Below, one piece after another: positions 3,598 through 34,789 of a stretch of 64,000 bases of DNA (positions are counted from its first letter, which is position 1; each line of letters starts with the position of its first letter). The notes under the pieces are model-generated. The model had not been told where the DNA came from. It ran no database searches and was given only the letters and a program-made list of their open reading frames with translations. This DNA is from a virus. The translations under genes were made by a program, and so were the position numbers. The stretch covers positions 1-64,000 of the IMG/VR virus record IMGVR_UViG_3300045141_000107; one strand, written 5' to 3'.

Positions 3598-3924
3598 TTA
3601 CTCCTCGTCCTCCTCTTCTTCGGCTTCCTCATCCTCAGCCTCTTCGTCTTCGTCTTCGGCCTCCTCGTCTTCTTCCTCTTCCTCTTCGGGCTCCGGCTCG
3701 GGGGCCTTGTAGGCTGAGATGAGTTGGCACGGGCGACGGTAACCCGTCAGCTTGGTGCTGAGCTGAAGCAGCACTTGCAGGTCGGCAATGACCTCGCTCG
3801 TACCGTGCTTCGCCAGGAAGGCCTCGGTACGGCGCTTCATAAGCGCCTCAGCCTCTGGTGTCTTCCACTCCGGTAGTGGACGCTTGGCTTTGGCCGTCTT
3901 CACAGCCGTCTTCGCTACTGCCAC
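3598..3924 (-). CDS. Protein with long acidic C-terminal tail
   Basis: 108 residues: a basic N terminus (AVKTAKAKRPLPEW), a helical middle (residues 25-65) and a final 35 residues that are almost only E and D with a few A. One of five proteins in this window with acidic/alanine-lysine tracts. Acidic tails of this type mimic nucleic acid or mediate contacts with basic partners, but no function can be assigned. Confidence 0.65.
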   Translation of the reverse strand: MAVAKTAVKTAKAKRPLPEWKTPEAEALMKRRTEAFLAKHGTSEVIADLQVLLQLSTKLTGYRRPCQLISAYKAPEPEPEEEEEEDEEAEDEDEEAEDEEAEEEEDEE

Positions 3925-3991
3925 GTAAATCTCCTCTGCGCAATGCGTGCGCCCGCCTTGTCAGTATCTTGTGCCCGCCTGGTGCACATAG

Positions 3992-4117
3992 CTACATAAT
4001 ACAGCCCCAGAGTTCCCTGTGCAATGCCAGTTTAGAGGCGACCGCCTCTAGCACTTCTTTCAACGCTTGTTGGAAATGCACTTCATGCACTGAAGGTTTG
4101 GATTCCTGAGCTTGCAT
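3992..4117 (-). CDS. Possible 41-aa protein
   Basis: An ATG at 4117 with a GGGAGAG site 3 bases upstream opens MQAQESKPSVHEVHF and a helix QQALKEVLEAVASKLALH. It overlaps the small zinc-ribbon ORF 4060..4203 in another frame. An 18-base inverted repeat (4032..4049) lies inside. Tentative. Confidence 0.35.
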   Translation of the reverse strand: MQAQESKPSVHEVHFQQALKEVLEAVASKLALHRELWGCIM

Positions 4118-4203
4118 AACTCTCCCTGGAGTACCCTATGAGCCACGATCTGGACTCCGCAGGTAGAGCAGTAATGGAAACACACTCCATTAGATACAAT
4201 CAT
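4060..4203 (-). CDS. Small zinc-ribbon protein (47 aa)
   Basis: Starts with ATG 4203 overlapping the stop of the KTSC-like gene (TGATG). CSTCG and, 24 residues on, CMKC give a four-cysteine zinc ribbon, with an extra Cys at about residue 30. Typical of the many small zinc-ribbon proteins in this phage. No function known. Confidence 0.5.
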   Translation of the reverse strand: MIVSNGVCFHYCSTCGVQIVAHRVLQGELCKLRNPNLQCMKCISNKR

Positions 4204-4511
4204 CAGACAATATCCTCTACCGGAAATTGCTTCAGGTTACTGATGAATGTGCCGGGACTAGGATGCTTAGCAAGCTCACAACACAGCTTGGGATTGAAGC
4301 TGTCACCTAGCTTGTAAGCATACCCCTTGCGTCCTTGGCGGAAGATCACCACCAGTGCTTTCATCCTGGTGTTGCGGCCTACGAACATGATGTGCGAAGG
4401 CTCACGGATCACGTGCCCATGGACAGTGAGGTTGCGGAGGGGGGCGTTATTTGCCTTCCCGCCCCCCTCCTCCTCGACAGCAAGCCGCGGAGGCACCTTG
4501 CTGTGAGTCAT
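4203..4511 (-). CDS. KTSC-domain-like protein
   Basis: 102 residues. The C-terminal part (KALVVIFRQGRKGYAYKLG, then a helix, then SPGTFISNLKQF) matches the layout of KTSC domains: a strand pair ending in a Y-x-Y-like signature, a helix, and G-x-F-x-x-x-I. KTSC is a small domain of unknown role frequent in phages and plasmids. The N terminus is loosely structured. The gene starts directly after the hairpin at 4519..4553. Confidence 0.55.
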   Translation of the reverse strand: MTHSKVPPRLAVEEEGGGKANNAPLRNLTVHGHVIREPSHIMFVGRNTRMKALVVIFRQGRKGYAYKLGDSFNPKLCCELAKHPSPGTFISNLKQFPVEDIV

Positions 4512-4518
4512 TAAGAGA

Positions 4519-4553
4519 GGCCCGCTCCCAAGAGGGCAAAGAGGGAGCGGGCC
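4519..4553 (-). terminator. GC-rich hairpin before gene start
   Basis: An 11-bp perfect stem (GGCCCGCTCCC pairing with GGGAGCGGGCC) and a 13-base loop lie between the stop of 4582..4872 and the ATG at 4511. On the minus strand it is followed only by TCTCTTAATG, a weak U run, so it could be a terminator, an attenuator or a structure that controls translation of the next gene. Confidence 0.55.
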
Positions 4554-4581
4554 ATCTCAACCACAGTGGGTGGTCGGCAAG

Positions 4582-4872
4582 TCACCCTGCTGCTTTTGTA
4601 ACTATAGCACGGCGGTGTTTCTGTGTGTGCCTGCATTCCCCGACCAGTATCCTCCGCTCCTTCATGAATTTAGACCATATTATCACTATAATACGCGCGC
4701 ATGTAGGCTTATTCCTGCACAGCGCTTCCGTTATCGCTCGCTCGTTAGTGAGACCAAACAGCTCTGGTGTTCCCCAGACAGTGATAACATATGGGCGTGC
4801 TGAAACACGCACCATCACTCGCCAACCGTGACGCTTGCCGTCGTCTGCACGGTATAGCACATCTACAATCAT
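4582..4872 (-). CDS. Hypothetical 96-aa protein
   Basis: MIVDVLYRADDGKRHGW, then beta-rich VMVRVSARPYVITVWG, then a helix and a basic C terminus. No family recognised. It sits between the gene 4881..5165 and the hairpin at 4519..4553. Confidence 0.55.
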   Translation of the reverse strand: MIVDVLYRADDGKRHGWRVMVRVSARPYVITVWGTPELFGLTNERAITEALCRNKPTCARIIVIIWSKFMKERRILVGECRHTQKHRRAIVTKAAG

Positions 4873-4880
4873 ATTGCCCT

Positions 4881-5165
4881 CTAACGCAGTGCGTCTACTT
4901 CACTCCAGTGTGAGTCCATCACGTATATACCCATCAGCTTGGCTGCACGTGATATCTCACCCCTACCCACATCACTGCGGTCTGTGGTAGTTACGTTGCC
5001 GACTATTATACGCAGGTGATAACGTTGCTTCTCAATAGGTCGAACGAAAAAGTGTCTGTCGGTGCCACCCCCTCTTGGTTGTTCATGCCACAATATAGCA
5101 TCCACGGGCTGACGTGCTTGCCCGTGTGTCAGCATCATCTTGCTGCGGCCAACGTATGTAAACAT
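4881..5165 (-). CDS. Hypothetical 94-aa protein
   Basis: Contains HFFVRPIEKQRYHLRIIVGNVTTTDRSD, an alternating beta-like segment. The start could be ATG 5165, only 9 bases after the -10 box of the promoter at 5175..5204, or one of two in-frame ATGs at 5138 and 5135. No family recognised. Confidence 0.6.
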   Translation of the reverse strand: MFTYVGRSKMMLTHGQARQPVDAILWHEQPRGGGTDRHFFVRPIEKQRYHLRIIVGNVTTTDRSDVGRGEISRAAKLMGIYVMDSHWSEVDALR

Positions 5166-7048: not shown

Positions 7049-7402
7049 TTAGAAACTCAATGGCATGTCAAAGACAAAGTTCGTTGGGAACGGCTCGAAC
7101 CCACCCTGCTCATTATACACCAGGATGACGAAGGGGTACCCTAGTCTTTGCCGTAGAGCCTGAACAGCTACCACGTTGAAGTAAGCGTGTCCAGTTACCA
7201 GGAAGAATATCCTACTTCCTGGCCAGATTCTATCTACACTGGCGCGTATCTCGGCGGTCACATCCAGGATGTAGTCCCGCGTTAGTGGCCGCCGAGACAG
7301 AGTAGAGAGCGGGTAGAGAACTACCTGGTCCTGGAGCCAACTCTCCAGGACCGCCTTGTCATGATGATGCGGTGTCGCTGAGACTACTGTTAGCACCCGC
7401 AA
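7049..7402 (-). CDS. Alpha/beta protein with weak SAVED-like pattern
   Basis: 117 residues. N-terminal strand MRVLTVVSA, a central helix, then SRIFFLVTGHAYFNVVAVQALRQR and FVILVYNEQGGFEPF. The order (strand with hydrophobic-x-x-x-small motif, helix with A-x-x-L, strand ending in VY, then Gly-x-x-P) resembles the second half of SAVED domains, the cyclic-nucleotide sensors of CBASS. It is far shorter than a full SAVED domain, so this is only a resemblance. The start overlaps the small gene 7359..7505. Confidence 0.6.
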   Translation of the reverse strand: MRVLTVVSATPHHHDKAVLESWLQDQVVLYPLSTLSRRPLTRDYILDVTAEIRASVDRIWPGSRIFFLVTGHAYFNVVAVQALRQRLGYPFVILVYNEQGGFEPFPTNFVFDMPLSF

Positions 7403-7505
7403 CCTTCTGTTGTTGTGCTTTGTCCAGTTTCTTGCGTGTCTTCTCTGCCTTGACCATCTGCTTGGAGTACTTGGTGTTCAGCTCTTTGATCTTGTCCTTA
7501 GCCAC
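7359..7505 (-). CDS. Small lysine-rich protein (48 aa)
   Basis: GTG start at 7505, overlapping the stop of 7498..7953. The sequence MAKDKIKELNTKYSKQMVKA continues as a charged helix with K/Q repeats and a Ser-rich tail. It overlaps the first 44 bases of the next gene. Likely a small coiled coil; role unknown. Confidence 0.55.
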   Translation of the reverse strand: MAKDKIKELNTKYSKQMVKAEKTRKKLDKAQQQKVAGANSSLSDTASS

Positions 7506-7953
7506 GTTTCACTTTCCTTCGAACGGGGACCTCTTCGTCCTCCTCGTCTTCCTCTTCGTCCGGTTCTGCTACCTCTTCATCCTCCTCGTCTGGCTCTTCC
7601 ACATCACGCCTGGTAGCAAACAGCATGAGAATTTCGCCAAGCTCGTCATCGTAGTCCGTAACAGCAGTCAGGTCATAACCGCGTACCCGTAGTGGCTTGC
7701 GCACACCTTCGCGGATTTTGACCTTCTCCGTCTTGCTGGCAACGGGAATGACCACGGCCTTCTCGGCTTGCTCTAGCCGAATAAGCCTGCGCACCAGCTT
7801 CTCGTACTCTGGGTTACGCGACCCAGGTGCACGTCCTTTAGGGACATCGTCCCTGCTAATTGTTCTGGCAACGACGATTTTACCGTTGCTCGGCAGGGCC
7901 TCTTCCGGCTCATCGTCCACAGGGACCCGCCTCTTCTTACGCACCATCACCAT
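7498..7953 (-). CDS. Hypothetical protein with acidic tail
   Basis: ATG 7953 with AAGGAG upstream. A basic N terminus (MVMVRKKRRVPV), a folded middle (residues 30-110, with GSRNPEYEKLVRRLIRLEQAEK) and a tail of about 35 residues of E/D ending in a basic VRRKVKRG. Same acid-plus-basic style as the proteins at 3598, 5244, 28453 and 35502. Function unknown. Confidence 0.65.
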   Translation of the reverse strand: MVMVRKKRRVPVDDEPEEALPSNGKIVVARTISRDDVPKGRAPGSRNPEYEKLVRRLIRLEQAEKAVVIPVASKTEKVKIREGVRKPLRVRGYDLTAVTDYDDELGEILMLFATRRDVEEPDEEDEEVAEPDEEEDEEDEEVPVRRKVKRG

Positions 7954-9602: not shown

Positions 9603-10025
9603 CTACATTGTACTGGCTGGACCATCGCGCCGCCATACCGGGAAATACACATTAGATCTGTATACGTGCCCGTATCTGTTAGCTATAGACATCTTGCCCT
9701 TGTTGAGTCTACCCTGCCTTACTAAGGACTCGAGCATCTGCCACAGACTGTTCTTGTTTTGGAACTGAGTGATAAGCACCAGCTCTTTAGCAGTAAATGG
9801 CCCTAAGACCAGAGCAGCATATTCACAGCACTGTTGATACAAATCATCCAGTGTTTTATCACGTCCAGATTTGCGCTCGTCGAACGGTACTTTGCGCTCG
9901 CAATCATTTACAGTCCGGGCTATGTCATAACTCAGGGCTATGCGATAGCTAGGGCAATAGAATCCACCACCCTGGCGTTCTCGTAGCAGCTTGCAATCGA
10001 AGCAACTGCTAATCTGCCAGGACAC
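9603..10025 (-). CDS. Cys-rich protein with winged-helix-like C terminus
   Basis: Residues 8-45 contain FDCK, FYCP and DCER, a probable metal site. The second half (FTAKELVLITQFQNKNSLWQ, then SLVRQGRLNKG) has the pattern of a winged helix with a beta wing. This would suit a small DNA-binding regulator. The GTG start overlaps the end of 10009..10395. Confidence 0.6.
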   Translation of the reverse strand: MSWQISSCFDCKLLRERQGGGFYCPSYRIALSYDIARTVNDCERKVPFDERKSGRDKTLDDLYQQCCEYAALVLGPFTAKELVLITQFQNKNSLWQMLESLVRQGRLNKGKMSIANRYGHVYRSNVYFPVWRRDGPASTM

Positions 10026-10395
10026 CCGCCCATCTCCGCAGCTTCTGGTAATCTTCCTCGTACATGAAGATTCGCCAGTACAGGTATTTCCCCCTGCGGC
10101 CTACGGTTCTGCGGTGGTAGACAGCGCATATGCCTACGCTGTCTGGGACTTGCACAACGTCTTTTATACCGCGGAGTATACTACGTACGCTCCCGTAGCC
10201 ACCAAGCGAGTCGGTCCGCTTCACTTGGAATGCGTAAAGCTTGCGTCCCAACCAGATGTTGTCCAGTATCGACCTGCTCTGGCTGCTGCGTATCGCCACC
10301 AGCTTGTACGGGAGTTCCTCCCCTATCTTTCTTATTTCGTTTTCCTTTGTTTGACCCCAAGCCTTTCTTGAACCTTTTCTTGTCCACACCATCAC
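10009..10395 (-). CDS. Possible PD-(D/E)XK nuclease-like protein
   Basis: 128 residues. YKLVAIRSSQSRSILDNIW followed by KLYAFQVKRTD has the order expected of a small Holliday-junction-resolvase-like nuclease core (Asp, then strand with x-V-K), with Gln in place of the usual Glu. The rest is basic. The match is by pattern only. Starts next to the stop of the Zn-finger gene 10392..10937. Confidence 0.5.
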   Translation of the reverse strand: MMVWTRKGSRKAWGQTKENEIRKIGEELPYKLVAIRSSQSRSILDNIWLGRKLYAFQVKRTDSLGGYGSVRSILRGIKDVVQVPDSVGICAVYHRRTVGRRGKYLYWRIFMYEEDYQKLRRWAGVLAD

Positions 10396-10937
10396 TTAGC
10401 CAATCCGGGTGATACAAAGCAGGATTGGCAAGTCCATGGAAAGAACTTTGAAGAAGGCCTTCTTTCCATAATCCGTGGTACTCGAAGAAGAGACGCCCTT
10501 CCATCACAGAGGGGGCACTCAACACTAGGTAAACGGTTGTGTGCCCAGAATGTTCCCCTAAGACGTTGGGCAACCCCTTCAGGGCATCCAGCGCTCGACG
10601 GGATTCCAAGTTTAGGAGAACGTAGAGTGGTGCCACAATGCACGCAGGTCCACACATCTTCTCTAGCGGTTTGGGCCATGAGGCCCCACTGATGGTAACG
10701 TTGCTTGCGTTGGATCCAGGGTCGCTTGCGGGTGTAGTCATTGTAGGTTAGTGCTACTCCATCTGGTGGGAACTTGATTACACACCCAAGGCAACGCTTC
10801 GGGGTTACCCGTATACCCTGATAGTGTGTGAGTAGTATGAAACAGGGTCTGTTGCAGACTTTACAGGTGCGGCTCATGCCGTCTGTGGGCAACGTGTACG
10901 TGCCATGTTTCAGGATACGGTCCTCCAATTCAAACAT
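10392..10937 (-). CDS. Multi-zinc-finger protein
   Basis: 181 residues with several Cys pairs: CKVCNRPC and CLGC near the N terminus, CVHCG near residue 95, CPLCDG near 140 and CQSC near 168. These give two or three zinc ribbons and a basic surface, likely for nucleic acid. A same-strand ORF at 10181..10741 in another frame is a shadow. Start overlaps the stop of the methyltransferase-like gene. Confidence 0.65.
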   Translation of the reverse strand: MFELEDRILKHGTYTLPTDGMSRTCKVCNRPCFILLTHYQGIRVTPKRCLGCVIKFPPDGVALTYNDYTRKRPWIQRKQRYHQWGLMAQTAREDVWTCVHCGTTLRSPKLGIPSSAGCPEGVAQRLRGTFWAHNRLPSVECPLCDGRASLLRVPRIMERRPSSKFFPWTCQSCFVSPGLAK

Positions 10938-12082: not shown

Positions 12083-12614
12083 TCCGCATCTCTGCCATAC
12101 GCCACATACTCTCTCGATCCAGCGCGTTTACGTACATCTGGAAATCTTTCGTTAAGGCATCCAACGCTTCTTCGAGTACGATAAGGTTATCCAGTTCGCG
12201 TTCCATACCAGATATACGCTTACTGGCCTGAACCTTACCGTGTATAGCGTCAACGTAGATCTTGCTGCTACGCTCTGGGGCAAATATGCGGAATAGCCTT
12301 TTCTTAGCTCGGTCCAGTCTGCGCTCTGCGGCTTTCTTCTCACCCCTGGTTATGCCGAGCAAAGCGTTGACACGAGCAAACTGCGCTGCCCAATACGACT
12401 GTAGCGCTCTCAGTTCACGTGGCTGCACCATTGTGATGTCAGTAGGGAAAGCATCGTCTTTGGTAATGTCCGGCATCTGGGCTGGAAATGGTATACTGAG
12501 TCGTGCCAGTGTTTCGAGCAGTTCCGCCCTTGGAACTACCATTTCCAGGCTTTGGATCATACGTGGCGTCAGTGGTGCTACTGCCGCTATATTCGTATGG
12601 TCCTTAGCGGGCAT
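12054..12614 (-). CDS. Long helical hypothetical protein
   Basis: 186 residues. Residues about 75-185 are almost entirely charged helix (RGEKKAAERRLDRAKKRLFRIF, then GMERELDNLIVLEEALDALTKD), likely a coiled coil. No recognised family. The start overlaps the end of 12604..12945. Confidence 0.6.
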   Translation of the reverse strand: MPAKDHTNIAAVAPLTPRMIQSLEMVVPRAELLETLARLSIPFPAQMPDITKDDAFPTDITMVQPRELRALQSYWAAQFARVNALLGITRGEKKAAERRLDRAKKRLFRIFAPERSSKIYVDAIHGKVQASKRISGMERELDNLIVLEEALDALTKDFQMYVNALDRESMWRMAEMRIVSGRGGGV

Positions 12615-12945
12615 CTATCCACTCCTTACCGCAACCAGGATGTGGGCACCTAGCGAGAAGCCCGTCCGGCAAGTCGTTTCCCCGATACGTTTCCACGACC
12701 GTTCCGTCCAGCGGACAAACCAACGCTACGATAAACCCCCTTCGGTTTCCTATCAGTTGCGCTAGATTGAGTTTGTCCATGTCGTTCTGTGTCAGGGCTA
12801 TCCTCTTGCTCAGGTGGCCTTTGACTTCGCTTCCCATTGCGCTTGGCCGCCAGTTGAAGTTGACAAAACCTGCAACCGGATAGACCTTCGAGCGATTTTG
12901 CGTTCTGGTGCTTTTTGTAGATCCCTTTGAGGTGCCAGCAGGCAT
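12604..12945 (-). CDS. Zinc-binding hypothetical protein
   Basis: 113 residues. The C terminus holds VCPLDG and CPHPGCG, a four-ligand zinc ribbon. The basic N terminus (GTSKGSTKSTRTQNRSK) overlaps, in the +1 frame, the upstream ORF 12650..13180. ATG 12837 is an alternative start. This frame looks protein-like throughout, so it is preferred where the two overlap. Confidence 0.55.
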   Translation of the reverse strand: MPAGTSKGSTKSTRTQNRSKVYPVAGFVNFNWRPSAMGSEVKGHLSKRIALTQNDMDKLNLAQLIGNRRGFIVALVCPLDGTVVETYRGNDLPDGLLARCPHPGCGKEWIDAR

Positions 12946-13180
12946 GGCAGAGTATTAGAACCTTCTTTCCAACAGAATGGTACTGTGGTGCGTCTTTGTC
13001 GGAGCCGCTTACTGAGTAATACTTACGTTCTCCGCACAGAGCGCAAGTATATCTGCTTATCTGTACCTCAAACGGGTCGAATGTAGGGTGGGACTTACCT
13101 GGGTTCTTTGCTTCCCACTTCAAGCGCGCTTTGTGGAGAAGCAACCAGTGCCTCTTTTGCCACGTCTCCAGCTTTACCAT
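12650..13180 (-). CDS. Zinc-finger protein, C-terminal part doubtful
   Basis: From ATG 13180, MVKLETWQKRHWLLLHKARLK is followed by YTCALCGER and, about 30 residues on, LCHACW, then GCRFC: a zinc finger resembling an HNH-type or Zn-ribbon core. After about residue 95 the sequence turns Gln/Arg/Ser-rich and runs under the next gene in another frame for almost 300 bases, so the C-terminal half may not be selected as protein. See the overlap pattern in the findings. Confidence 0.5.
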   Translation of the reverse strand: MVKLETWQKRHWLLLHKARLKWEAKNPGKSHPTFDPFEVQISRYTCALCGERKYYSVSGSDKDAPQYHSVGKKVLILCHACWHLKGIYKKHQNAKSLEGLSGCRFCQLQLAAKRNGKRSQRPPEQEDSPDTERHGQTQSSATDRKPKGVYRSVGLSAGRNGRGNVSGKRLAGRASR

Positions 13181-13192
13181 GTGTATGCCTAC

Positions 13193-13221
13193 AGTATACA
13201 GGCTGGGACGTTCTGGCAGCA
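13193..13221 (-). promoter_or_regulatory. Putative promoter (weak -35)
   Basis: Minus strand: -35 TGCTGC, 17-base spacer with GAACGTCCC, -10 TATACT then GTAGGC, 12 bases before ATG 13180. The GTCCC in the spacer resembles the palindromic promoters. Confidence 0.4.
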
Positions 13222-13222
13222 C

Positions 13223-14394: not shown

Positions 14395-14633
14395 TATCGG
14401 TTCTTCTTTGCCAGGACTTCCGCTTTGAATTTGATGAGGTCTGTCATGCAATCCATGCAGATGCGGTCGTTGTTGAACGGCAACGGTTTGGTGTCGTTAT
14501 CCTCTATAAGGATAAATCTCCACATATGTGGTAGACCGTAGAATGCTACTACGGTAGTTCCGCAAGCATCACAAACTGTTTCATGCTCTCGCGTAGGGAC
14601 GACATTGGAAACAGGAGTCTCGGTCACATCCAT
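14394..14633 (-). CDS. Small zinc-ribbon protein
   Basis: 79 residues. VCDACGT at 20 and ICMDCM at about 58 form a split four-cysteine zinc ribbon around a beta segment. The start overlaps the stop of 14633..15052 (TAATG). No function known. Confidence 0.6.
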   Translation of the reverse strand: MDVTETPVSNVVPTREHETVCDACGTTVVAFYGLPHMWRFILIEDNDTKPLPFNNDRICMDCMTDLIKFKAEVLAKKNR

Positions 14634-14916
14634 TAGTCTTTACTGGGAACCCTTTCTTCTTCAGGAACATTCGGTCGCATCTGCTCAACAAATGCGGACT
14701 TGGGACCAACACTATGCGGTCCTCTGTCTTGGTTACCTTGGTCTTGAACCACACCTTCCGTTTGGTAATGAACATCAATCGATGATACGTGCCGAACATC
14801 TCTTGAATCCACTGGCTCCGTACCCCTACCGGCATGTTCCTGGGCAATAGATATACCCACTTGAGGGTTGTTATATCTTGGGGGTCGCCCTGGATCTGGA
14901 ACGCTCTCGCTTCCAT
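14581..14916 (-). CDS. Hypothetical protein overlapping a zinc-ribbon ORF
   Basis: ATG 14916 follows CAGGAGTGCT, an ideal ribosome binding site. The frame reads like a folded protein (TLKWVYLLPRNMPVGVRSQW, MFITKRKVWFKTKVTK) and has high third-position GC. It lies in the +1 frame inside 14633..15052 and ends 52 bases into the next gene. Either it is a true overlapping gene or the upstream ORF has lost its stop. Confidence 0.5.
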   Translation of the reverse strand: MEARAFQIQGDPQDITTLKWVYLLPRNMPVGVRSQWIQEMFGTYHRLMFITKRKVWFKTKVTKTEDRIVLVPSPHLLSRCDRMFLKKKGFPVKTNGCDRDSCFQCRPYARA

Positions 14917-15052
14917 AGCACTCCTGACATATTATGGTCTCGCGTAGTCTACAGCCAGTCGGTCCAGCAGCCATGACGCACGTAGCAATCGGATAGACTA
15001 TCACCCCGCACTCTACACACTTCATATTAGCGTGCCTATGCCAGCCTGCCAT
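14633..15052 (-). CDS. Zinc-ribbon protein with overlapped C-terminus
   Basis: The N-terminal MKCVECG and, 28 residues later, ICQECYG form a zinc ribbon. After about residue 52 the sequence is Pro/Gly/Gln-rich and lies over another convincing frame (14581..14916). The frame closes with a TAATG junction to the next gene, which speaks for it being translated to its end. Confidence 0.5.
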   Translation of the reverse strand: MAGWHRHANMKCVECGVIVYPIATCVMAAGPTGCRLRETIICQECYGSESVPDPGRPPRYNNPQVGISIAQEHAGRGTEPVDSRDVRHVSSIDVHYQTEGVVQDQGNQDRGPHSVGPKSAFVEQMRPNVPEEERVPSKD

Positions 15053-15962: not shown

Positions 15963-16571
15963 CTATACGGGTGGTGGTTGTATTGCGTCACCCTGACTAA
16001 CAGGGTATATTTCTTCCGCATCAGTAATTATAACACCACCCACGTTTGCTGACAAACTCACGTAGTTGACCAGATGTGTGACTGTGAACAGATAATCACA
16101 CAGATACTCTTGCAGGTCATGCACAATATCTTCAGTGATACTAGGCTGCATCTGTATCATCATCGACATATAGCCAGGATTGGGAGTAGGTGCTGCGTCT
16201 GGTGGCGTCAGCGGTGTTGCAGACGCAGCGATCTGCGTGCCACTATTGGGTATGGTGCCACCCTGAGCTAATGGTGTGACAGGCAGTGCAAAGTATCCAG
16301 CTTTGTCTGTCGCCACATCTGTCATGGTAAACGTTGCCCAACGTGTATTGTCTTGGAACTGTTCCAGACGTACAACGTCACCAACCTTCAGTTGTGACAG
16401 GTCATTGGCTCTGTTTATGTTGTTGTTATCAGTAGTGGTGACATTGATTACAGTAGCAGAGTCCCAACCACCAGTGTCGGTTCTTGCTTGTTTAGCAGGC
16501 GGAGGCACAGAAGTCTGGGTATTCCATACCCAATCGCCTTTGGGGGCATGTCCCCCTACTTCAGTCGCCAC
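15963..16571 (-). CDS. Hypothetical 202-aa protein
   Basis: N-terminal disordered Pro/Thr region, then a small beta domain (LSQLKVGDVVRLEQF, WATFTMTDVATDKAGYFALPV) resembling a short barrel, a Pro-rich linker and a hydrophobic C-terminal part (VNYVSLSANVGGVIITDA). Overlaps the end of recA by 11 bases. It looks structural or recombination-linked; no family recognised. Confidence 0.6.
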   Translation of the reverse strand: MATEVGGHAPKGDWVWNTQTSVPPPAKQARTDTGGWDSATVINVTTTDNNNINRANDLSQLKVGDVVRLEQFQDNTRWATFTMTDVATDKAGYFALPVTPLAQGGTIPNSGTQIAASATPLTPPDAAPTPNPGYMSMMIQMQPSITEDIVHDLQEYLCDYLFTVTHLVNYVSLSANVGGVIITDAEEIYPVSQGDAIQPPPV

Positions 16572-17598
16572 TATGCGCCAGCACTTTCACCGCTGCTTCC
16601 AAGCGGGTTGCTATCTTGACGTCTCGTTCCAGCAGGTTGAGGAATGCAGTACGCATCATGGGTTGTGTCCATTTGGTAGTGTACCTGAGGCCAATCTGTT
16701 CTACCGCACCAACTTCCAAGCCTAGTTGGAGCAGCTCGCTGTATCTATCCACCGCACGTAAAGCGAATAGATAGCGGAAGGTACCGTCCCTTTCCGCGTT
16801 CGCACCAGTCTTGTCCTTTTCGACGCGTACTCGGACCACCCGCCCAACAGTACCATCCTTCTCAACGACTTTGCCGTTTTCAACCTTGCGGGTTTTTCCT
16901 TTGATAGCTTCACCCTTTCGGAAGTCGACTCGTTGAGAAGCGAAGAATCCGAATGCACGTCCTCCCACTGGTTTCTCGGGGTTGCCATAGTGGACACCTA
17001 CGTTCTCCCTGACCTGGTTTATCAAGACGACCGCTGTGCCACCAGAATTTACAGCGTTCCACTTACGTGCCATCTTGCTGGTTAGCTTACCCATTTTGCC
17101 CATTTGGGAAGCTTCTGCGGACTCCTCTAGCTCATCTTTGGGTACCAGTGCGGCTATACTGTCCACCCCTAGTAGGTCGAAGCTCCCTGAGCGTATTAGT
17201 GCTTCGCCCACATCGATGATCTCTTCGCCCACTTCCAGCTCGCCTACCATGTACAGGCTTTCTAGGTCTACACCAAGGCGAGCTGCGTGCACAGGATCGA
17301 AACTATGCTCCGCATCCATCAAGGCGCAGTTGCGTCCCGCCGCTTGTGCTAGCGCTATCGTCCTGTACAAGGCATGACTCTTCAGGGCTGCATACTGGCC
17401 GTAGAATTCCGTGATTCTCCCTAGCGCGATTCCACCACCCAAAAGGAAATCTAACGTTAGTATCCCGGTCGAGATCCTCCGAATCTGGAACTTCGGGTCC
17501 GATGCGCGGAAGAGCACCTGCTTCCCGAATCTCTTCTGCAATATCGTCTGCACTTCCGCTAGTTGTGGTGGCGCAGTGGTGGCAGACTTCGACCTCAT
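16561..17598 (-). CDS. recA: RecA/UvsX-like recombinase
   Basis: 345 residues from ATG 17598 (AAGG six bases upstream). RecA core: TGILTLDFLLGGGIALGRITEF, Walker A GQYAALKS (67-74) with Leu where bacterial RecA has Gly, then LMDAEHSFDP, VDSIAALVP (Walker B) and the L2-like region RENVGVHYGNPEKPVGGRAF. The residue before the Lys is also bulky in T4 UvsX (Phe), so the variant is known in phages. It pairs homologous DNA in phage recombination. The upstream zinc-ribbon ORF overlaps its first 300 bases in another frame. Confidence 0.9.
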   Translation of the reverse strand: MRSKSATTAPPQLAEVQTILQKRFGKQVLFRASDPKFQIRRISTGILTLDFLLGGGIALGRITEFYGQYAALKSHALYRTIALAQAAGRNCALMDAEHSFDPVHAARLGVDLESLYMVGELEVGEEIIDVGEALIRSGSFDLLGVDSIAALVPKDELEESAEASQMGKMGKLTSKMARKWNAVNSGGTAVVLINQVRENVGVHYGNPEKPVGGRAFGFFASQRVDFRKGEAIKGKTRKVENGKVVEKDGTVGRVVRVRVEKDKTGANAERDGTFRYLFALRAVDRYSELLQLGLEVGAVEQIGLRYTTKWTQPMMRTAFLNLLERDVKIATRLEAAVKVLAHSGD

Positions 17599-17692
17599 AC
17601 ACAACCTTTCGAAGCTGCTGCTCGGTACGAGGCTCCAGACAAGTGAAGCATCGATGCAGCGGCTCGACTTTTTTCTTTAAGAAGTTGATCAT
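17303..17692 (-). CDS. Zinc-ribbon ORF overlapping recA start
   Basis: ATG 17692 has GGAG six bases upstream. MINFLKKKVEPLHRCFTCLEP and VCHHCA form a zinc ribbon in the first 45 residues, which end where recA begins. The frame then stays open for almost 300 bases over recA in a different frame, with a composition that looks like out-of-frame sequence. Only the ribbon part is likely to be selected. A shift into the +1 frame after the ribbon would fuse it to RecA. Confidence 0.5.
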   Translation of the reverse strand: MINFLKKKVEPLHRCFTCLEPRTEQQLRKVVYEVEVCHHCATTTSGSADDIAEEIREAGALPRIGPEVPDSEDLDRDTNVRFPFGWWNRARENHGILRPVCSPEESCLVQDDSASTSGGTQLRLDGCGA

Positions 17693-17704
17693 CAGTATCT
17701 CCAT

Positions 17705-20700
17705 TTACACTGGAATCGGGTATTTGGCATCTTCAAAGATGACGCTGTTCCTGCCGACCTGCCGCTTGCCATACATTAGAACAACTCTTCCTTTGAACAA
17801 GTGCGGACCATGTTGCTCCCAATACTTCGGAAATACAACAACGTCCCAGGTACCTACCCCTTCGTATTTGACCTGGACAAATGCCATAGGGTAACCATTC
17901 TTCGTGGTTATCTGTCTTACTCGGTCGATTTGCCCGCCTAGCCAGCACCATTTATCCTGAGATGAAGTAAGCGCTTTGAGATTTAGTGGCCGGCGGATCT
18001 TACGGTCGAGCATCTTGCGGTAGTTATCTATTGGATGACTGGTTACATATGTCCCTAGCAGTTCCAACTCCGTTTGCCCTCGGTCTGCGTCGCCAGGTGT
18101 ACCAATGCTCTCAAATGCACCAACCCGACGTAGTAGTTCGATGACTCTTACATTGCATCTCCTCTTTGTCACTGTCGCTCTCAAATGGTCTTCCGAAGTG
18201 AACGGCCTGTTCTCCACCAGTTCAGTGCAGGCTGCCGCACCTACCCCTTTTATAGCAGTCAGACCGTAACGGATGCCACGTTTACCTTCCACGACAAAAC
18301 CTGAACCTGACTTGTTTACGTCCGGCGGAAGGAAGCGCAATCCAAAGAACATCTTCGCTTCATCAATGTAGACCGGGTAGTCTTCCTTATTGGCGTAGCT
18401 CAGCAGGGTGCAAAAGAAGATCGCTGGATAGTATGTCTTCAACCACGCTGTCTGGTACGCAATCATGGCGTATGCCGTGCTGTGCGCACGGTTGAACCCG
18501 TAGCCCCTGTAGGCGTAGATCATCTCCCATATCTGGGTTGCTACTTCCAGGGTGCACCCGTTGTGAGTTGCTCCGATCGACTTGCCTTTGGACTTGCCAC
18601 TGAGTTTGTCGAAGAGTTCGCCCCCATCGAAGAAAAGTGGTTTGAGCTCGTTCCATATGTCACCTTTCTTGTACTTGATAGCTTCCTTGAGTTCGTCCAC
18701 TAAGTGGTGGTCGAACCCTCCGATCTGTAGACCAATCTCCATGACCTGCTCTTGATAGAGGACAACCCCCTTAGGGAGTATTCGTCGTAGCCTCCTGTCT
18801 GGGAGCTTCCTACGTAGTTCAGCAGTTGCACCGTCACGGCCTTCTCTATAGGGCTCGACGAACTGGTTAGCACCACCGCGCCCGAGGGCCATGACAGCAA
18901 TGAGGTCCTCAAAGCTTTGTATCTGTAAATCTCGTACGACTTGCCGTGAAGTTCCGCCCTCAACCTGGAAAATTCCTGAGCATGCTCCCTTGTTAAGAGT
19001 ATCCCAAACAGCCTGATCCTCATACTCATACATGCCCTCAAAAGGATCCTCGCCTATGAGTTCGATGCAATCTTGTATGACATCCAGCGTGGTGAGACTC
19101 AGGATATCAAACTTCACTACACCCAACCGCTTGAGACCATCCATATCATACTGAGTTACTACAGCTTGTTGACCTCTGCCTTGCCCACGACCTACCATCA
19201 TCGTGGGCACCAGTTTTTGTAGGTCAAACTCTTTATCTGCAATAACTATGCCAGCGGCGTGCTTACCCTCGCCTGTAATGAGGTCTTGAATGTTCGTAGC
19301 CCACTCGTAGAAGTTTGGGTAGCTAACCATAGCACCCTTTAGTACAGGGTGCAGATGCTCGTCTTGAAGTAGCTCCTTGAGGTCCCCGCTTGCCTTCAGG
19401 TTGACGATAAGTGCTGCATCTGGCAAAGACTTACTTGCCGCAAATTGTTCATTGCGCGGGAAGCCTAGTGCGCCGAGGATTCTCTGCACTGTGCTTCTCG
19501 GGCCACCACGTGCAAACGTTCCTACCTGTTGTGCCTGATATGGTGCCTTGTTGTATCTGTCTAGCAGGTACTTGACTACTTCGAGCCGCCTGCTGTTAGG
19601 AAAGTCCACATCGAAATCAGGAAGGGATGGACGAGCCGGGTTAAGAGCACGCTCAAACATAAGGCCGAAGCGAACAGGGTCCACGTCGACAATGCCCATA
19701 AGAAAGGCGGCGAGTACCCCTGCCATAGAGCCTCTGCCAGGACCAACACGAATACCCCTAGACCTAGCCCAATCAATATAGTCGCGTACGATAAGAAACT
19801 CTTCTTCGAACTTACTGTCGAAGATGACTTTAAGCTCGTACTCAAGCCGATCCCGGTATACCTCCACGGGCGCTGCCAACCCGCCACGTCTCTCCAGCAC
19901 TCGCAACCTTTTACTGCAGAGCGAACGCATATACTCAGCAGAAGGCACTTCTGGGTTTGCTCTTGGTGCAACCGGGATATGCCAGCTACGCTGTTCAAGC
20001 TCGGGAATACTGAGCTGTATATCATCAGTATATTCGCGTAAAGTGCGCTGGCTAGCTTGCCATACTTCAGGCTGATCCGCCCAGAGTGCTCGCATCTCTC
20101 CAGTCGTTTTGAGGTGGTAACCTGAACCGTCGAACTTGAAGCGAGACGAATCCCGCCAAAGAGAAATCGTCTGGCAGGCGAGCCATAGGTCGTGAACCGA
20201 GTGATGTGATGGTTCAACATAATGGCTGTCATTGGTGATAACGATAGGGAATCCGTACTTTTCGTGCCATCCGATGAGCTTGTCGTTGACTTTTTCCTGG
20301 GCGTCGTTGGCTCTTCTGTCATCCTGGCTCTTGAGGTTGTAGTCGTGCCGTTGCAGTTCCAGATAGAAGTACGGAAACAGCTCCCTAAAGTATTGTGCCA
20401 GCTCTAAAGCGGACTTGTTTTTGTTAGCGAGGATAAGCTGTGGGATTGGCCCATTGAGACAAGTTGAGCTGGCAATAAGATGGCGTCTGTCTTTCCTCGG
20501 TATCGCTTCCAGCGTACTGTAATCAACACGAGGCTTGTAATAAAAGTGGCTGGGATCGTTCGCGGTACTGCTAAGCTCGCAGAGTATCTCATACCCACGT
20601 CTGTCTCTAGCCAGGAGTACCAGATGGTGCCGCCGTGGACCCTCCTTTTTCCCAGTCTCCGAGTCAATGGTGCGGGTGCGGTCAGAGCAGTCATTGCAAA

Positions 20701-20908
20701 GATAGAATTCTTGTCCAACAATAGGCCGAACATCATTCTTTCGGCATGCCTGGTAAAACTCAGGAACTCCAGACATGCGGCCATGATCTGTAATTGCGAG
20801 TGCAGTTTGTCCATCTGCGTGTGCTTTCTGGACCAGATCGGGTATGCGTGCCAAGCCGTCTAGCACGCTATACTCTGTATGGGTATGAAGATGTACGAAC
20901 TTAGCCAT
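17705..20908 (-). CDS. dnaE: DNA polymerase III alpha subunit (DnaE-type)
   Basis: 1067 residues, slightly shorter than bacterial DnaE. It begins with a PHP domain (VHLHTHTEYSVLDGL, ITDHG, IVGQEFYL). The polymerase core has GPGRGSMAGVLAAFLMGI and the catalytic PDFDVDFPNSRR near residue 430, then GILSLTTLDVIQD, EYEDQAVW and the thumb/finger region with YRGYGFNRAHSTAYAMIAYQTAW. A C-terminal helix-hairpin-helix (GLTAIKGVGAAACTELV) and an OB-like end (WLGGQIDRVRQI) follow. It replicates the phage genome. Several same-strand ORFs inside it are shadows. Confidence 0.95.
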   Translation of the reverse strand: MAKFVHLHTHTEYSVLDGLARIPDLVQKAHADGQTALAITDHGRMSGVPEFYQACRKNDVRPIVGQEFYLCNDCSDRTRTIDSETGKKEGPRRHHLVLLARDRRGYEILCELSSTANDPSHFYYKPRVDYSTLEAIPRKDRRHLIASSTCLNGPIPQLILANKNKSALELAQYFRELFPYFYLELQRHDYNLKSQDDRRANDAQEKVNDKLIGWHEKYGFPIVITNDSHYVEPSHHSVHDLWLACQTISLWRDSSRFKFDGSGYHLKTTGEMRALWADQPEVWQASQRTLREYTDDIQLSIPELEQRSWHIPVAPRANPEVPSAEYMRSLCSKRLRVLERRGGLAAPVEVYRDRLEYELKVIFDSKFEEEFLIVRDYIDWARSRGIRVGPGRGSMAGVLAAFLMGIVDVDPVRFGLMFERALNPARPSLPDFDVDFPNSRRLEVVKYLLDRYNKAPYQAQQVGTFARGGPRSTVQRILGALGFPRNEQFAASKSLPDAALIVNLKASGDLKELLQDEHLHPVLKGAMVSYPNFYEWATNIQDLITGEGKHAAGIVIADKEFDLQKLVPTMMVGRGQGRGQQAVVTQYDMDGLKRLGVVKFDILSLTTLDVIQDCIELIGEDPFEGMYEYEDQAVWDTLNKGACSGIFQVEGGTSRQVVRDLQIQSFEDLIAVMALGRGGANQFVEPYREGRDGATAELRRKLPDRRLRRILPKGVVLYQEQVMEIGLQIGGFDHHLVDELKEAIKYKKGDIWNELKPLFFDGGELFDKLSGKSKGKSIGATHNGCTLEVATQIWEMIYAYRGYGFNRAHSTAYAMIAYQTAWLKTYYPAIFFCTLLSYANKEDYPVYIDEAKMFFGLRFLPPDVNKSGSGFVVEGKRGIRYGLTAIKGVGAAACTELVENRPFTSEDHLRATVTKRRCNVRVIELLRRVGAFESIGTPGDADRGQTELELLGTYVTSHPIDNYRKMLDRKIRRPLNLKALTSSQDKWCWLGGQIDRVRQITTKNGYPMAFVQVKYEGVGTWDVVVFPKYWEQHGPHLFKGRVVLMYGKRQVGRNSVIFEDAKYPIPV

Positions 20909-33283: not shown

Positions 33284-34789
33284 ATGGCAAGAGCATCTAG
33301 GCAAAAGATTACTGCCACGGTCGGAGGTAAACTGGTCTTACCAAGACAGCAAGTACCACGCGATCTATTTGAGGCACTCCTTACGCACCTTACTTGGGAT
33401 AATCCTGAGTACACGGACCGTGTGTTCAGACAATTGAGTACGCGGATATACGACAAGAAAACGCGCACGTGGCGAGAGATACCAAAACACATCTACGGTA
33501 TCGCAATAAATGACGAGAACCAGACATACGAACTGGCAAGAGAGTTCGTACCAGAGTTCGAGAGACTGTGTGGGGAACGCGAGATAGAGATAGAATGGGA
33601 CGATAGACGGGTTATACATGAAGCCCATCCTTTGCCCCACAGCATAGAATTATGGGCACCACAGATACCCGCTGTCGAGGACCTAATGCATGATGATTAC
33701 GGACATCAAGGTGTGCTTGAGGCACCATGCGGGTCTGGGAAAACAGTTATGTTGCTGTATCTCGTGGCAGAACTGGGACAGCCAACTATCATACTCGCTC
33801 ATACAGATGATCTTCTCAAACAATGGCAAGATTACTGCCGCCGTCTTCTGGATTACGACCCAGGACTTATCCAAGGAGACACCTGCGACATAAAGCAAAT
33901 CACGCTGGCTAGCGTAATGACGCTTGCACGTAGGCATCTGGACGACGAGTTCCTGAGCCAGTGGGGTATGATTATACTGGACGAGGCGCACCATTGTCCG
34001 GCAGCTTGCTTTCAAGAAGTAATGACACAGTTTCCCGCATACTACCGCTTTGGAGCTACTGCTACACCCAGACGGGAAGACAACTTGCAGGGACTCCTCT
34101 ACGCCATCTGTGGGCCAGTTATTGCTAAGGTACAACGTAGGGCACTAAAGCAAGCCGGACTTATTGTAGACCCCGTCGTGATGGTACAGGAAACTGGTTT
34201 CACCTACCCGTACACAAACATGCATCAGTGGCACCCAATGGTGCGTTCTTTGATACATGATAGGCGACGTAATGCCCAGATCATCGAAAACATCATCCGA
34301 GACTTCGACAGCGGAGACCACGTCCAGCTTGTCCTATCTCAGCAAATCGACCACCTCGATCTCCTGGCAAAATCTTTACAAGAACGTCGACCTGACATTA
34401 CCCAAGAGCTCCTTATCGCCGGAGGAACTAAGAAAGATAAGTACGGACATATCACACGTACTATCGGTCGTACGAAGAAGGAAAGGGCGGCAGCTATCAA
34501 GTCTGCTAGAAAAGGCGATCTGCGCGTACTTTTTGGAACTCAACTGGCAGACGAGGGACTCGATATCCCACGCCTCGACAGGCTTCACCTTGTCTTTCCC
34601 ACAAGGGCACAAGGCAAGATTGCGCAGCAAGTTGGACGCATTCAACGTGTCCATCCCCGAAAGAGAGATGTTATCGTCCGTGATTACGTGGACGAACCGC
34701 GCGTCCTCAAAAACCAGTGGTTCGAGAGGCGAAAAGCTTACGTAGAAATGGAGTTAGAGATAGTCCGTGCGAATCAAAGGACGAGCTGA
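33284..34789 (+). CDS. SF2 DEAH-box helicase
   Basis: 501 residues. Walker A APCGSGKTVML near residue 147, motif Ia IILAHTDDLLKQW, DEAH box IILDEAHHCP, motif III FGATATP, motif V FGTQLADEGLDIPRLD and motif VI QQVGRIQRVHP. This is the Rad25/UvsW-type group of SF2 helicases common in phages. It probably remodels forks or recombination intermediates. First gene of the plus-strand block, with its own promoter. Confidence 0.9.
   Translation: MARASRQKITATVGGKLVLPRQQVPRDLFEALLTHLTWDNPEYTDRVFRQLSTRIYDKKTRTWREIPKHIYGIAINDENQTYELAREFVPEFERLCGEREIEIEWDDRRVIHEAHPLPHSIELWAPQIPAVEDLMHDDYGHQGVLEAPCGSGKTVMLLYLVAELGQPTIILAHTDDLLKQWQDYCRRLLDYDPGLIQGDTCDIKQITLASVMTLARRHLDDEFLSQWGMIILDEAHHCPAACFQEVMTQFPAYYRFGATATPRREDNLQGLLYAICGPVIAKVQRRALKQAGLIVDPVVMVQETGFTYPYTNMHQWHPMVRSLIHDRRRNAQIIENIIRDFDSGDHVQLVLSQQIDHLDLLAKSLQERRPDITQELLIAGGTKKDKYGHITRTIGRTKKERAAAIKSARKGDLRVLFGTQLADEGLDIPRLDRLHLVFPTRAQGKIAQQVGRIQRVHPRKRDVIVRDYVDEPRVLKNQWFERRKAYVEMELEIVRANQRTS

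Follow-up and report, generated by a model that had tools for sequence, protein, structure and literature searches.

A zinc-ribbon open reading frame (ORF) that runs, out of frame, into the start of a phage recA-like gene raises the question of whether the two are joined into one protein or are read as separate, overlapping genes. The window, the whole stretch of 64,000 nucleotides that we analyzed, comes from a 90,205-base virus record (IMG/VR IMGVR_UViG_3300045141_000107), and on its minus strand a DNA polymerase III alpha-like gene is followed by the zinc-ribbon ORF and then by the recA-like gene. Comparison with related phages suggests that ribbon and recA are, more probably than not, two overlapping genes, each with a predicted product of its own, and not parts of a ribbon–RecA fusion.

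The polymerase gene lies directly upstream (17705..20908, minus strand, as are all features of this locus; Pfam DNA_pol3_alpha, PHP, DNA_pol3_finger and HHH_6) and ends in a TAA (17707–17705). A GGAG ribosome-binding site recognizable from the sequence (17699..17702), where relatives carry purine-rich stretches, stands 6 nt ahead of the ribbon ATG (17692). From there the ORF runs for 129 aa to a TAG (17303..17692; stop at 17305–17303), and it is open to this same stop in all 11 sequences compared. An alternative in-frame ATG upstream of this start (17704) is found in three of the 11 only, namely the window and the relatives L001 and L002. The encoded ribbon has the form CxxC-x18-CxxC (C15, C18, C37 and C40; 17573..17650), with all four cysteines invariant across the 11 sequences, so that the preliminary description of a ribbon ORF with its own GGAG is borne out on the minus strand. 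That description also placed the ORF up against the exact start of recA. The recA ATG (17598), conserved in 11/11, instead falls in ribbon codons 32–33, before the second CxxC, and it is preceded at a spacing of 6 nt by an AAGG ribosome-binding site within the ribbon ORF (17605..17608) whose four columns are invariant in the 11 sequences. The recA-like gene (16561..17598, 345 aa) thus shares 296 nt with the ribbon ORF (17303..17598) and is read in the +1 frame relative to it, which upholds the earlier statement that the ribbon frame stays open over some 300 bases of recA.

The recA product contains a RecA core domain (Pfam RecA PF00154, 191 bits against a cut-off of 27) and matches RecA chains of known structure, 7jy6 and 2rec among them (E about 2e-52), and the UvsX-like / RecA family phrog_97 (E 2.2e-50). 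Its score against the bacterial RecA equivalog TIGR02012, 206.8 bits, is below the cut-off of 325.3; judged by these profiles, it is RecA-like and not the bacterial equivalog. The Walker A motif (codons 67–74, 17377–17400, minus strand) reads GQYAALKS in 11/11 sequences, with a leucine in place of the glycine of the aligned E. coli-type RecA, and this patch is frozen at silent sites as well.

A RecA scan of IMG/VR returned 10 loci whose RecA is 88–99% identical to that of the window. Scans of IMG/VR with the RecA alignment, the ribbon product, the RecA core and DnaE recovered these same 10 close relatives (9/10 with DnaE) and no intermediates, and a scan of genome contigs found no close relatives. 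The comparison set of window and 10 loci therefore holds 11 recA genes, of which 8 are distinct and 6 well diverged (77.5–85.4% recA DNA identity among the six lineages). The ribbon cysteines, the +1 offset and the position of the TAG 296 nt into recA are identical throughout the set, and no sequence has a ribbon-frame stop ahead of the shared TAG. The clean stop after the ribbon for which relatives were to be searched is accordingly present in 0/10. It had been proposed that a small leader gene lost its stop: the ORF does start by itself and meets no stop ahead of recA, but the loss is not recent, being common to the window and its 10 relatives, and the identical arrangement in 11/11 sequences means that this group has long been without the stop. 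On the same ground we rejected the loss of a stop in one phage, as well as an assembly or sequencing error or an individual indel. Both starts and the ribbon TAG are conserved in 11/11, and the two reading frames each have the conserved start and stop of their own that mark an overlapping pair.

How far the second frame is more than a tolerated shadow cannot be read from its length. When recA codons are replaced by random synonymous ones, the ribbon frame stays open with P 0.013–0.024 per lineage (six lineages, which are not independent), so that its open length taken alone is mildly improbable and weak evidence; shadow ORFs of at least 80 aa are also common in the window. These two observations suit a chance reading, in which recA conservation merely holds the frame open and nothing beyond the ribbon has a function. 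We regard that reading as very improbable, since excess silent-site conservation and conservative ribbon-frame changes are confined, within recA, to the overlap.

Sites were counted by their effect in both frames after the scheme described for OLGenie (PMC7531306), with our own simplified script and not the OLGenie program; the resulting statistics rest on the six diverged lineages, and the tests are not independent of one another. The last 20 ribbon codons ahead of the overlap have a pN/pS of 0.12, and immediately after the second CxxC variation moves from the ribbon wobble position to that of recA. The ribbon-frame dNN/dNS is 0.36 in the overlap (bootstrap 0.14–0.75) versus 1.30 after it (1.0–1.8) and stays at 0.32–0.45 in the overlap with any single lineage dropped; the third frame gives 1.22 in the overlap and 0.60 after. 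All 31-codon windows along recA that combine an SN rate below 0.40 with dNN/dNS below 0.5 start inside the overlap, and those starting at recA codon 97 or later have dNN/dNS of at least 0.91. Among recA codons with an invariant, degenerate residue, 40/82 are themselves invariant in the overlap compared with 31/177 after it (Fisher p 4e-7, 8 distinct sequences). Possible ribbon-frame stop sites are used in none of 11–13 cases per lineage in the overlap, against 8–19 of 55–62 after. Where recA varies silently, the ribbon-frame consequences are mild: across the 39 such columns of the whole overlap conservatism reaches p 0.0025, and the 21 columns of its two outer blocks, delimited below, have a mean BLOSUM score of +0.32 compared with −1.02 for 114 columns after the overlap, stops left out (p 2e-4). 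The same test in the third frame gives no signal (p 0.64).

This constraint is not uniform. Block 1 (recA codons 1–43, of which 2–43 were tested; 17470..17598) is constrained in both frames, with a dNN/dNS of 0.29 (0.06–0.74) and an SN rate of 0.20 versus 0.63 after the overlap. Block 2 (the 23 codons 44–66; 17401..17469) is linker-like and unconstrained in the ribbon frame (dNN/dNS 6.9, SN rate 0.71), and in block 3 (codons 67–97, the Walker A region; 17308..17400) constraint is back and continues up to the TAG. The dNN/dNS of block 3 is 0.19 with an interval that reaches 1.06 (0–1.06), its SN rate is 0.30 and its ribbon-frame changes are conservative (p=0.014), which weakly suggests ribbon-frame conservation there. 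The out-of-frame part had been called non-protein-like; the ribbon-frame conservation of block 1 and, less strongly, of block 3 qualifies that description. Purifying selection thus appears, from these substitution patterns, to act on both frames of the overlap except in block 2 and in one pair of genomes. In that pair, the window and G001, changes are few and the overlap is not frame-specific: its dNN/dNS is 0.59 for the ribbon frame compared with 0.54 for the third. Silent identity of the recA overlap in the pair is 69/91 (0.76) against 0.566 for all 53 genes, and the overlap is not singled out, since five of these genes contain a 98-codon window that exceeds its value and a sixth equals it.

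Silent-site conservation of this kind could also come from an element, RNA or DNA, within the 5′ portion of recA, serving translation control, binding or recombination, with the ribbon tail a tolerated by-product that happens to meet no nearby stop. The lack of frame specificity between the window and G001 fits such an element, as does the folding of block 1, which beats synonymous shuffles in 6/6 lineages (z −2.2 to −4.2; the sequences are nearly identical and not independent) and pairs the recA start with codons 43–44, where constraint ends, in the predicted helix. With shuffles that use the codon usage of the genome, the three lineages retested give z −1.9 to −2.9. The genomic background is high, however: 18.6% of 156 windows reach z −2 and 7% reach −3. 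Inspected by eye, the outer helix has one base pair that is lost in 2/6 lineages and covaries in one. Block 3 is constrained and shows no unusual RNA folding, and substitutions across the six lineages follow a bias set by the amino acid of the ribbon frame, with no such bias for the third frame. We consider an element of this sort rather unlikely as the explanation, while giving it real weight.

A programmed +1 frameshift within the overlap, yielding a ribbon–RecA fusion beside free RecA in the domain order of RadA/Sms, was the other proposal for this locus. The downstream frame is +1 in 11/11 sequences, block 1 ends sharply, as it might at a region where ribosomes shift, and two precedents, a distant phage RecA with an in-frame N-terminal ribbon and the joining of a C4 zinc finger to a RecA-like ATPase in RadA (as described in PMC11612176), lend the idea some plausibility. 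The offset itself carries little weight, given that long codirectional overlaps favour +1 even without selection (PMC3887535; the present case is, by our reading, phase 1 of that study). Nor does recA behave as a second ORF that lacks a start, with its conserved ATG at 17598 and AAGG, and by eye we noticed no conserved run at the junction that would allow easy re-pairing. Ribbon-frame constraint also returns in block 3 as far as the TAG, and a frameshift neither requires nor predicts that constraint or a conserved TAG. The controlled fusion therefore found no positive support here, and we judge it improbable. An in-frame ribbon in related phages, the comparison suggested at the outset, is seen only at a distance: the +1 offset is kept in 10/10 close relatives, and the fused form occurs in the distant locus L058.

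Two overlapping genes remain our preferred reading, supported directly by the conserved starts, the conserved shared stop and frame-specific conservation over most of the overlap. Polymerase, ribbon and recA would lie on one message. Ribbon translation would begin at its own GGAG and ATG and complete the zinc ribbon within 40 codons, after which ribosomes would continue for 89 codons, out of frame over recA codons 1–98, to the conserved TAG, giving a product of 129–132 aa. RecA would be initiated separately at the internal AAGG and ATG, and both proteins would be produced in the cell. Because ribosomes on the ribbon frame would traverse the recA start, the overlap may couple the amounts of the two proteins.

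In the ribbon product, the ribbon would be followed by an acidic segment that is conserved, then by a linker that varies, and lastly by a conserved stretch with cysteine that leads to the TAG, a four-part layout that follows from the constraint on blocks 1 and 3 and the freedom of block 2 in the ribbon frame. The 129-aa product matches nothing in Pfam, PHROGs or the sequences of the PDB, and NCBIfam gives a single sub-threshold hit (E 0.039; 13 bits, cut-off 425). A tblastn search of 50,697 phage records gave only two matches (E 3 and 7), which lie beneath a tail protein and an HNH endonuclease. Structure prediction from the 11 sequences was unusable (pLDDT 33, below 50 at every residue). Judged solely by its place between polymerase and recA, the protein may bind zinc and act as a small partner to RecA or to the replication machinery.

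The window contains 10 minus-strand ORFs with two suitably spaced CxxC/CxxH motifs, and half of them (5/10) overlap a following ORF of at least 60 aa by at least 200 nt, all five in the +1 frame. At 178–477 the overlap is 212 nt and the next ORF (72–389), also cysteine-containing, opens with GTG and lacks an ATG close to its start; this locus was compared in one relative only. The ORF at 12650–13222 overlaps the next (12604–12945) by 296 nt, with both frames conserved around its third CxxC, the nearest AAGG 15 nt ahead of the downstream ATG, and a tail stop that is not conserved. In L001 (about 7205–7890) the ORF that follows it is replaced by one that we take, from its motif, to be GIY-YIG nuclease-like. 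A CVEC..CQEC ORF (14633–15052) overlaps the next gene (14581–14916) by 284 nt; the ATG of that gene comes right after the last CxxC and is preceded by AGGAG, and the tail stop varies among relatives. Since their stop positions vary, the tails at 12.6 and 14.6 kb look mostly passive. The remaining case, a five-CxxC protein (10392–10937), lies under a long +1 ORF (10181–10741) over 350 nt and shows low silent change over its second half; the gene that follows it is probably 10009–10395, with an overlap of 4 nt.

One could imagine a shared device at recA and at the 12.6-, 14.6- and 0.2-kb loci, by which CxxC ORFs lead +1 into the next gene and a controlled shift equips some of the RecA, and some of other proteins, with a zinc ribbon, an idea that we hold to be very improbable. 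We discounted the +1 offset of the other CxxC loci as a sign of frameshifting, as long overlaps favour that offset anyway (PMC3887535). The window also has a second-frame ORF of 162 aa on the plus strand (34257–34745), inside a helicase gene (33284–34789, plus strand). Silent change in the helicase is halved over it (SN 0.32 vs 0.66) and its frame has a dNN/dNS of 0.61 (0.42–0.91) against 0.92, both from four lineages; with this frame-specific constraint it is a probable second overprinted gene in this phage.

A 296-nt overlap across the N-terminus and Walker A motif of a recombinase, seemingly selected in both frames, would be a clean test case for dual coding. With a probable second case of overprinting inside the helicase gene, it stands in a phage record of about 90 kb, a genome not short of space. 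The overlap also marks a previously unrecognised, predicted zinc protein that may work with the phage RecA.

Among known systems, RadA/Sms resembles the locus in pairing a C4 zinc finger with a RecA-like ATPase, but there the zinc finger, RecA-like and Lon-like domains form one chain (as described in PMC11612176), whereas the ribbon of the window is encoded in a separate frame; the sms model scores 22.2 bits against a cut-off of 403. The distant phage RecA of L058 (3263–4834) is similar in having a CxxC..CxxC ribbon (CTAC..CEAC) encoded directly ahead of RecA. It differs in that the ribbon is in frame and followed by a long Ala/Pro/Lys linker, in a Walker A reading GPESSGKTT, and in a RecA core only 31% identical to that of the window. 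By eye, it is the sole in-frame fusion among 13 distant phage RecA loci, some of them nearly identical. One other of the 13, L051, carries upstream, and in a different frame, an ORF with two CxxC motifs that has its own stop near the recA start and a short overlap. In Gordonia phage UBSmoodge (L012), the hypothetical gene 105 (3601–4014) overlaps the RecA-like gene 106 (3986–5104) by 29 nt, also in +1. The phrog_97 family entry mentions no overlapping gene, and we found nothing on a ribbon overlapping recA in the open-licence literature on phage recA or recombinase genes with a zinc ribbon or an overlap. The closest likeness is to the long codirectional overlaps of viruses and bacteria, in which the 3′ end of the upstream gene is likewise read in a second frame inside the 5′ end of the downstream gene, and the ribbon/recA offset is the one typical of them. 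As given in PMC8903798, the median length of +1 overlaps is 14 nt in viral reference genomes (interquartile range 8–26), compared with 296 nt here. In a survey of 338 prokaryotic genomes, none of the codirectional overlaps of at least 60 bp that were analysed was judged real, such cases being regarded as misannotations, and the longest real one below that length was holD/rimI, at up to 56 bp (PMC2478687). Because the +1 and codirectional overlaps of these surveys, as reported there, are short or were judged unreal, ribbon/recA would be a long, apparently selected example of a known arrangement.
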